Positions 61,546 to 64,000 of a DNA stretch of 64,000 nt are shown piece after piece. Position numbers and translations under genes: made by a program. Below the pieces are notes generated by a model. The model saw only the letters and a program-made list of their open reading frames with translations, was not told the DNA's origin and made no database searches. The stretch is from the NCBI GenBank assembly GCA_902632555.1, contig CACPCZ010000002.1, positions 62,001 to 126,000 of the forward strand. Reading direction: 5' to 3'. This DNA comes from an uncultured SAR86 cluster bacterium (GTDB taxonomy: Bacteria > Pseudomonadota > Gammaproteobacteria > Magnimaribacterales > D2472). Each line of letters begins with the position of its first letter. The stretch's first letter is position 1.

Positions 61546-61622
61546 GGCTATGTAGCTCAGATGGTTAGAGCACAGCACTCATAACGCTGGGGTCGGTGGT
61601 TCAATTCCACCCATAGCCACCA
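61546..61622 (+). tRNA. tRNA-Met, elongator (anticodon CAT)
   Basis: GGCTATGTAGCTCAGATGGTTAGAGCACAGCACTCATAACGCTGGGGTCGGTGGTTCAATTCCACCCATAGCCACCA; follows ychF as in Pseudomonas. Confidence 0.95.
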
Positions 61623-61630
61623 ATTTTAAT

Positions 61631-61864
61631 CTACTTTTTTCTAAGAAAAGCCAAAATTATTATTAACGAAACTAATGCAAGTAGAGCATCTTCACCAAGC
61701 ATGTTTAAAACATCAGAGACATTTTTATAAACGTCGCCCACAAATGGTGTATCTATACCCAAAATGATTCCTAAAAGCAAAGAAGATGCTACTAGTGGAA
61801 CAAGTAATTTAGTAATTTTATTTAGTAGATTAGTAAGAGTTGTAAGTGTGACTTTAAAATTCAT
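61631..61864 (-). CDS. Small two-TM membrane protein of unknown function (paralogue of 61918..62136)
   Basis: 77-aa ORF MNFKVTLTTLTNLLNKITKLLVPLVASSLLLGIILG...LLALVSLIIILAFLRKK; aligns with the neighbouring ORF. Confidence 0.7.
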   Translation of the reverse strand: MNFKVTLTTLTNLLNKITKLLVPLVASSLLLGIILGIDTPFVGDVYKNVSDVLNMLGEDALLALVSLIIILAFLRKK

Positions 61865-61870
61865 ATTTTT

Positions 61871-61899
61871 AAAAAAACTGGAAGGGGTTTCCCCCTTCC
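61871..61899 (-). terminator. Rho-independent terminator
   Basis: Minus strand GGAAGGGG-GAAA-CCCCTTCC-AG-TTTTTTT: 8-bp GC-rich stem, GNRA-type loop, U tract; 18 bp after the 61918 ORF. Confidence 0.93.
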
Positions 61900-61917
61900 A
61901 TTAAGTTGTTAAGTTAA

Positions 61918-62136
61918 TTACTTAACAAGACTCATTAAGATTGCAATTACTATTAGTCCTACAACACCCATTGAAGTTAAGTTTTCAACAAGAGAAGTTA
62001 TATTTCCAATAACATCTATCCCCATACCCATATCGCCGAATACCAATGCTCCTACGATACCAAGTCCTAGAACAGCAACAAGCACTTCAGTAAGTTTTCC
62101 AACTAAACCAAGTACCATCTTAAATGCATTATCCAT
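61918..62136 (-). CDS. Small two-TM membrane protein of unknown function
   Basis: MDNAFKMVLGLVGKLTEVLVAVLGLGIVGALVFGDMGMGIDVIGNITSLVENLTSMGVVGLIVIAILMSLVK; purine-rich SD GGGGGGAAA ~6 nt upstream of 62136 ATG; dedicated terminator downstream. Confidence 0.78.
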   Translation of the reverse strand: MDNAFKMVLGLVGKLTEVLVAVLGLGIVGALVFGDMGMGIDVIGNITSLVENLTSMGVVGLIVIAILMSLVK

Positions 62137-62287
62137 AATATTTCCCCCCATAGGTTTTTTTATGTTTTGCAGGAACAATGAGAACATAATTTCTGTCTCG
62201 AATCAAATTATGTAAACAAAATTTAGACACAATATTTGACATTTGAAAATATATCTAATACGAATAAAAAAAGTGTTTTTTAGAAAC

Positions 62288-64000
62288 TTATTCTTTATTT
62301 TCAATTAAAGCTTTCATTGAAAGCTTCATTTTACCTCTATCAAATCCAATAAGCTTTACCTCTACCTCCTGACCTTCTTCGAGAACATCATTAACGTCTT
62401 CTGTTCTCTCCGAAGAAATTTCTGAAATATGAAGCAGTCCATCTTTACCAGGTAATATATTTACAAAGGCACCAAATTCAACAATTTTTACCACGGTGCC
62501 TTTATATACTTTATTAAGCTCAGGCTCTTCTAATATTCCCTCTATAATAGCTAAACATTCTTGCATAGAAGATTGATTTTGACCAAAGACTGAAACAACA
62601 CCATCATCATTGATATCGACTGTAGCCCCAGTTTTTTCTTGCATTGACTTTATTACTGCTCCGCCTTTGCCGATAATTTCTTTAATCTTTTCTTTGTCAA
62701 CCATAAATGACTTCATAGCAGGAGCATTCTCTGATAATTCTTTTGGTTTTGATATAACTTCATTCATAATACCAAGAATATGATCTCTTGCAGCTTTAGC
62801 CTTAATTAGAGCTGTTTCCATAATAGACTCATTTATACCGGATATCTTTATGTCCATTTGCAAGGCTGTAATGCCTGATTCTGTTCCAGCAACTTTAAAG
62901 TCCATATCACCTAAATGATCCTCATCTCCGAGAATATCAGTCAAAACGGCAAATTCTTCGCCTTCTTTAATTAGTCCCATCGCAATGCCTGCTACAGGAC
63001 TTGAAAGGGGTACTCCAGCATCCATTAGAGACAAAGAGGTTCCACATACAGATGCCATTGAACTAGAACCATTAGATTCTGTAATTTCAGATACTACTCT
63101 CATCGTATATCCAAATTCGTCAACATCTGGTAGTACAGCTTTAATTGCTCTTTTTGCTAAATTTCCATGACCAATTTCTCGTCTCTTTGGACCCATTGGC
63201 ATTCCAATTTCTCCAACACTATACGCGGGAAAATTGTAATGCAACATAAAGTTATCACTACCCTCTCCTTCAATTGATTCTATTCTTTGCGCATCTCTGG
63301 AGGAACCAAGAGTTGCAACAACTATTGCTTGAGTCTCTCCTCTTGTAAACAGAGCTGAGCCGTGAGCTCCAGGTAAAACATCTGTTTCAACAAAAATTGG
63401 TCTGACAGTATCTAGGTCTCTTCCATCTATTCTTGGTTGATTATTAAGAACATTTCCTCTAACAATATCTTTTTCTAGTTTCTTGAAATCTCCCATCAAT
63501 TTTCCCATTTCCGTCTCGTCAAGTTCTTCGTATTTCTCTTGAATTTGAGCTCTAATCTCCCTCAAAGCTTCATTCCGATCAGATTTAATTGATATTTTAA
63601 AAGCTTCTGAAATTTGTGGCTTGTAGTTTGTTTCAAGATCTTGATAATAACTATGCTGATCTTCAGGAATCTCAATATCCCAAATTTCGTTTCCGGTCTT
63701 TTCTTTTAATTCATTGCAAGCATTTATGACAGCTTTCATTTCTTGATGTCCAAAAAGTACTGCACCAAGCATTAAATCTTCATTTAACTCTTTTGCTTCA
63801 GATTCAACCATCAAAACAGCATCATCTGTTCCGGCAACTACCATATCTAAGTACGAATCATCTAACTCCTCAAAATTTGGGTTAAGAACGTATTCACCAT
63901 CTATGAATCCAACGCGAGCTGCTCCCATAGGACCATCAAATGGAACACCTGAAATCGTAAGAGCAGCAGATGCACCAATCATAGCTGCAATGTCAGGATT
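62288..64000 (-). CDS. pnp: Polyribonucleotide nucleotidyltransferase, 5' part outside the window
   Basis: [26 protein letters not shown] domain [23 protein letters not shown]1 domain; the 63982 Met is internal. Confidence 0.96.

Follow-up and report, generated by a model that had tools for sequence, protein, structure and literature searches.

Introduction

T4-like cyanophages carry psbA and hli, host-derived genes for membrane proteins, and in the puf operon of purple bacteria (pufBA, hairpin, pufLM) an intercistronic hairpin is thought to set unequal amounts of the products. The locus described here lies in a window from a SAR86 genome, i.e. the whole stretch of 64,000 nucleotides that was analysed, and holds two small genes, termed A and B. 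Like puf, it encodes small membrane polypeptides and has a hairpin between cistrons; however, the hairpin here sits between the paralogues themselves, and both proteins lack the histidines that act as bacteriochlorophyll ligands. SAR86 and SUP05-type bacteria rank among the most common marine cells, and phage gene content gives an indication of the factors that limit infection. A is so small and hydrophobic that routine annotation misses it, yet it occurs in nearly all SAR86, is apparently abundant and lies on at least about 139 viral contigs, which marks a real gap, and since it is one short gene it is directly testable. Its carriage by marine T4-like phages is the main point that goes beyond the sequence-only reading of this locus.

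Results

A paralogous gene pair conserved in SAR86

A and B are located between tRNA-Met (61546–61622, plus strand) and pnp (from 62288, minus strand). The following features are referred to throughout:

61918–62136, minus strand: gene A, ORF of 72 amino acids encoding a protein with two transmembrane (TM) segments; candidate major subunit, family member also found in phages
61631–61864, minus strand: gene B, ORF of 77 amino acids; paralogue of A, candidate minor subunit
61879–61900, minus strand: hairpin between A and B with a 9 bp stem containing six GC pairs, followed by a T-run
62137–62290, minus strand: conserved region upstream of A, from an alignment of 29 SAR86 upstream regions

The sequence-only reading had proposed two short hydrophobic ORFs of 77 and 72 amino acids on the same strand, related by duplication. 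Both ORFs are present, and profile–profile comparison (hhalign 98%, E 2.8e-13 over 70 columns, with profiles of 17 homologues each) confirmed their relationship, though in pairwise BLASTP the match (25% over 55 aa, E 0.15) falls short of significance. The profile of A additionally picks up B within the same genome, and A and B are real genes and true paralogues. An ORF finder reads A from an upstream ATG at 62187, giving 89 amino acids; the 72-residue start, which we favour, is supported by the conserved G-rich Shine-Dalgarno sequence just 5' of the shorter ORF, by the boundary of conservation and by the relatives.

The relatives of the window genome are SAR86 genomes, for example SAR86A and D2474-A1-1. 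A single-sequence search recovered A in 48 of 60 relatives, and the profile search found A and B together in 37 of the 40 SAR86 genomes that are at least 90% complete, covering 14 of 15 genera; the two matches were adjacent in every case. The tandem pair is present in every family of the order, with A preceding B in the SAR86 loci fetched, and dN/dS values of 0.03–0.22 for A and 0.03–0.19 for B indicate purifying selection in cells. Within the family of the window the neighbourhood is kept, with A–B between ychF/tRNA-Met and pnp, while in other SAR86 families the same unit has different neighbours. The earlier description of the pair as an unexplained insertion consequently has to be given up: since the order is kept where neighbours differ, A–B is a transcription unit of its own. 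No functional partner was seen among the neighbours in the loci of cellular genomes read; tRNA-Met, pnp and ychF, and likewise ubiA and dapD (see below), were considered for this role and look like bystanders.

Protein anatomy and family searches

As anticipated from the sequence, each protein has two hydrophobic segments (residues 15–33 and 53–71 in A, 20–38 and 56–74 in B) and a mildly amphipathic N-terminus. AF2 models of moderate confidence place helices at 2–33, 42–55 and 58–71 in A (mean pLDDT 78) and at 3–35, 42–56 and 58–76 in B (mean pLDDT 81), so that both proteins are predicted to have a long first helix, a short amphipathic one and then a final helix. The termini are basic and the loop is acidic in A and B, and both ends would accordingly be expected in the cytoplasm with the acidic loop in the periplasm. 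The helices are glycine-rich and tightly conserved and are devoid of catalytic, cofactor or ligand residues, which suggests that A is a self-assembling structural or pore protein.

Pfam, NCBIfam, PHROGs, PADLOC, PDB sequences and Foldseek (PDB, BFVD) yielded no family match above noise, in agreement with the earlier statement that no named family was recognisable. PADLOC has no model for A, and its best hit for B was a partial match to a candidate model (E 0.0079, 13.6 bits). Plasmids and cultured phages gave no match, nor did any of 50,697 phage records, and no description of the family was found in the literature. The A/B family thus appears to be unrecognised and is absent from the databases searched. 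The sequence-only reading had made itself dependent on homologues under purifying selection and on the lack of a characterised family, and on both counts it stands. Type IV secretion pilins (PF18895, VirB2-like) are also small, glycine-rich two-TM proteins, and pilins polymerise; however, PF18895 was matched below threshold in single members only (E 0.87 and 0.12, far below the curated cut-off), and A and B have neither a signal peptide nor secretion genes nearby.

Intercistronic hairpin, upstream region and codon bias

The hairpin of the window has a folding free energy of −17.9 kcal/mol (z −3.3). A GC-rich stem is found in 74 of 75 distinct A–B intergenic stretches, compared with 1.9% of dinucleotide shuffles. 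Stem sequences vary by lineage (GGAAGGGG, AAAGGGAG, GAGCCGGAG and others) while the stem itself is constant, so that it is structure and not sequence which is kept. As a perfect U-run is missing from many of these hairpins, the element may act as a leaky terminator or as a stabiliser of the 3' end of the A message.

Upstream of A, the conserved region contains inverted TCAAAT..ATTTGA elements, a possible leader stem (TTATGTT..AACATAA) and the G-rich Shine-Dalgarno sequence beside the ATG. The inverted elements look like a regulator site or an unusual promoter; a consensus scan found no promoter 5' of A, and Rfam gave no match in the upstream region, returning only tRNAs and sub-threshold noise. 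The spacing of the inverted elements varies by about 10–11 bp, one helical turn, among lineages.

As an indirect proxy for expression we used the fraction of C-ending codons among two-fold codons plus Ile. Pooled over 34 genomes this fraction is 0.33 for A, 0.24 for B, 0.18 for pnp and 0.17 for ychF; genes of the window average 0.174 (sd 0.042), with MreB at 0.34 and ribosomal genes mostly at 0.2–0.3. Judged by these values, A would be expressed very highly and B less so, and from the stronger bias in A we infer that A would be the major and B the minor subunit.

A-type genes in other cells

A-type genes were found in 46 of 80 genomes of a presumed Thioglobaceae-type (SUP05-type) order of Gammaproteobacteria, where they lie between ubiA and dapD as a single gene or as two to three tandem copies. 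The tandem copies were seen in the order of genome G381, genus g476 (e.g. loci L052 and L057). A is missing from one Thioglobaceae-like genus with small single-contig genomes, symbiont-like in appearance. Thioglobaceae-like cells carry A without B, so B is outside the core function in some lineages. Distant B-like partners exist in two families beyond SAR86; the arrangement of A, hairpin and B is present in family f105, and a related tandem pair in genome G397. A Woeseia-like genome and an SP335 genome also contain A-type genes, and in G284 (L035) an A-like domain is fused to a long tail rich in Lys and Thr (KTKT), which can be likened to histone H1-like tails. Phylum-wide searches outside Gammaproteobacteria gave borderline matches at most, none beyond noise.

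Phage copies of A

In IMG/VR, A-type contigs were retrieved with the SAR86 profile (9 contigs), a phage-derived profile (9), another phage sequence (49) and the Thioglobaceae profile (152, of which 80 were kept). After removal of repeats this amounts to at least about 139 distinct A-bearing contigs, probably more than 200, with viral calls taken from IMG/VR and many contigs being short. In 146 viral loci we observed exactly one A-type ORF per locus and no B-type ORF, the latter being sought inside A-bearing loci. By PHROG, the genes near A include those for terminase, the major head protein and the tail tube, for DNA polymerase, helicase and DNA ligase, and for PhoH, Hsp20 and ribonucleotide reductase. 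The contigs are genuine phage genomes, many of them with T4-like hallmarks.

The position of A differs from clade to clade: it is found directly behind gp23 in 23 loci, before gp19 in 20, at a distance of 60 nt before terL in 22 and before a Gcw_chp porin gene in 5, and further near pstS, before a gene for a BMP-type binding protein or beside Hsp20. One phage clade has a perfect sigma70-type promoter (TTGACA-16-TATAAT) about 44 nt upstream of A, and a terminator-like hairpin follows A in many loci; in several clades promoter, gene and terminator make up a cassette. The promoter class, considered as a way to tell a holin from an auxiliary gene, gave a mixed picture: some copies lack an obvious promoter, and some may use late TATAAATA promoters, so that the timing would differ among copies. 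In L271 and L278, which belong to phage group 3 and have the order gp23–A–gp19, GC-rich hairpins flank A on both sides and a late-promoter-like TATAAATA site lies between A and gp19.

Omega values of 0.05–0.17 for the viral clades indicate purifying selection in phages as well. In a tree of 178 sequences and 76 columns, in which many forks are unresolved and support is modest, SAR86-like phage copies fall on the side of SAR86 A and Thioglobaceae-like phage copies with Thioglobaceae A, suggesting that several phage clades branch next to the hosts presumed for them. The group-3 copies form two clades, and no host for this group was found in the cellular genomes searched.

The surroundings of viral A hold further membrane and transport genes. 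In presumed SAR86 phages (L146, L147, L157, L162, L163 and others) Gcw_chp/TorF-type porin genes lie beside or near A, possibly as an outer-membrane auxiliary gene. L288 and L289 encode IscU- and IscA-like proteins together with an NMT1/ABC transporter set and a BMP-type binding protein; these genes are either a rich auxiliary cargo or a piece of host DNA inside a viral contig; an IscU-encoding SAR86 phage has been reported (PMC5332604). In 27 loci of Thioglobaceae-like phages a conserved small membrane protein adjoins A:

L193 3191–3625, L205 1239–1697, L179 7132–7569: phrog_38283-like small membrane protein, candidate holin

This neighbour was first thought to be a 3TM holin, but matched no named family.

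Discussion

In this study, we explored a pair of small membrane-protein genes of SAR86 and followed one of them into marine phages. We propose that A and B constitute an undescribed, abundant, oligomeric inner-membrane complex of hairpin proteins, whose A gene T4-like phages carry as an auxiliary gene, a reading to which we give about even chances. A and B would be two subunits of one complex, each with an amphipathic N-terminal helix leading into TM1 and then, ahead of TM2, a short periplasmic loop that is acidic and holds a further amphipathic helix. A strong transcription unit would provide much A, and the hairpin would halt or stabilise most messages after A and thereby lower the amount of B, leading to major and minor subunits. 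The A oligomer could then contribute to the structure or the permeability of the membrane. Of the earlier proposal of a duplicated small membrane protein that possibly forms a homo- or hetero-oligomer (a holin-like pore, a respiratory or transport accessory subunit, or a stress peptide), the duplication holds and a hetero-oligomer is plausible, while a holin has become less likely because the chromosomal copies are strongly conserved and seem to be highly expressed.

Marine T4-like phages would have taken the A gene several times from hosts, or exchanged it with them, and expression from the phage's own cassette would let the membrane function continue or rise during host shut-off. The gene has chromosomal homologues at conserved loci in SAR86 and Thioglobaceae-like cells, the presumed host lineages, it lies on phage genomes with terminase, major head, tail tube and DNA polymerase genes, and it is under purifying selection there. 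The many insertion sites, the cassette form, the selection and the apparent branching beside presumed hosts together give the pattern of a host-derived auxiliary gene, for which the 76-column tree is suggestive but no proof with respect to direction and number of transfers. This suggests that A provides something which cells and viruses alike need in quantity. The wider statement, that planktonic Gammaproteobacteria need a membrane function of an unnamed, abundant and self-assembling inner-membrane family, and that many T4-like (perhaps also jumbo) phages independently take over this function during infection, we put at slightly below even chances.

A rather unlikely alternative is that A serves superinfection exclusion or innate anti-phage defence, hindering injection of phage DNA in the manner of T4 Imm, with the phage copy being a moron directed against rivals. 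A small two-TM protein encoded by an autonomous cassette of promoter, gene and terminator at many sites in lytic phages would fit this role, as would the absence of A from the Thioglobaceae-like genus that resembles sheltered symbionts. However, the cellular sequence is highly conserved and shows no arms-race diversification, its high expression appears constitutive, PADLOC has no model for A, and the phages would need to be insensitive to the copy of their own host. T4 Imm and the class II holins resemble A in size, in their two TM segments and in the phage cassette, but A and B are a conserved chromosomal pair and no sequence similarity to either was found.

We consider it unlikely that A serves a respiratory or transport complex as an accessory subunit. 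The gene next to A encodes a Gcw_chp porin, a pstS-like protein or a BMP-type binding protein with NMT1/ABC genes in some phages, which hints at envelope transport, but such neighbours are confined to a few phage lineages, and in the genomes read cellular A is never beside a respiratory or transport operon and forms its own transcription unit everywhere.

That A makes pores for phage lysis, and that the cellular copies are domesticated holins, is very unlikely, because A is conserved, paired with B and apparently abundant in nearly all SAR86. The size, the two TM segments and the basic C-terminus would suit a holin, some group-3 copies lie behind gp23 among the late structural genes, and an M15 peptidase gene is located downstream of A in 10 group-3 loci. 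Against this, in most phages A does not sit in a lysis cassette, since the genes around it vary between clades and belong mostly to structure, nucleotide metabolism or transport; one clade has a promoter of sigma70 type, not a late one; and A is far more conserved than is usual for holins.

Equally doubtful is a small mechanosensitive or osmotic channel, like MscL in action but much smaller: A resembles MscL in its anatomy (amphipathic N-helix, glycine-rich TM1, periplasmic loop, TM2, basic C-terminus) and MscL is absent from 60 SAR86 relatives and 80 Thioglobaceae-like genomes, but it is equally missing from genomes without A, which makes its absence uninformative and led us to reject A as an MscL replacement, A has 72 residues compared with about 136 in MscL, its members do not match the Pfam profile PF01741, and we see no reason for a lytic phage to carry such a channel. 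The exclusion, holin and osmotic-channel readings are less probable than an auxiliary inner-membrane protein.

For the auxiliary inner-membrane protein, the closest described systems are hli and psbA. As in these, a host gene for a membrane protein is found on T4-like marine phages, some phage clades seem to lie beside those of presumed hosts, the copies are under purifying selection, and Hsp20 and PhoH are encoded nearby. In contrast to these, the hosts of A are not photosynthetic, A has no pigment-binding motif and its sequence is unrelated. If our reading is correct, A would be a widespread non-photosynthetic counterpart of psbA and hli.
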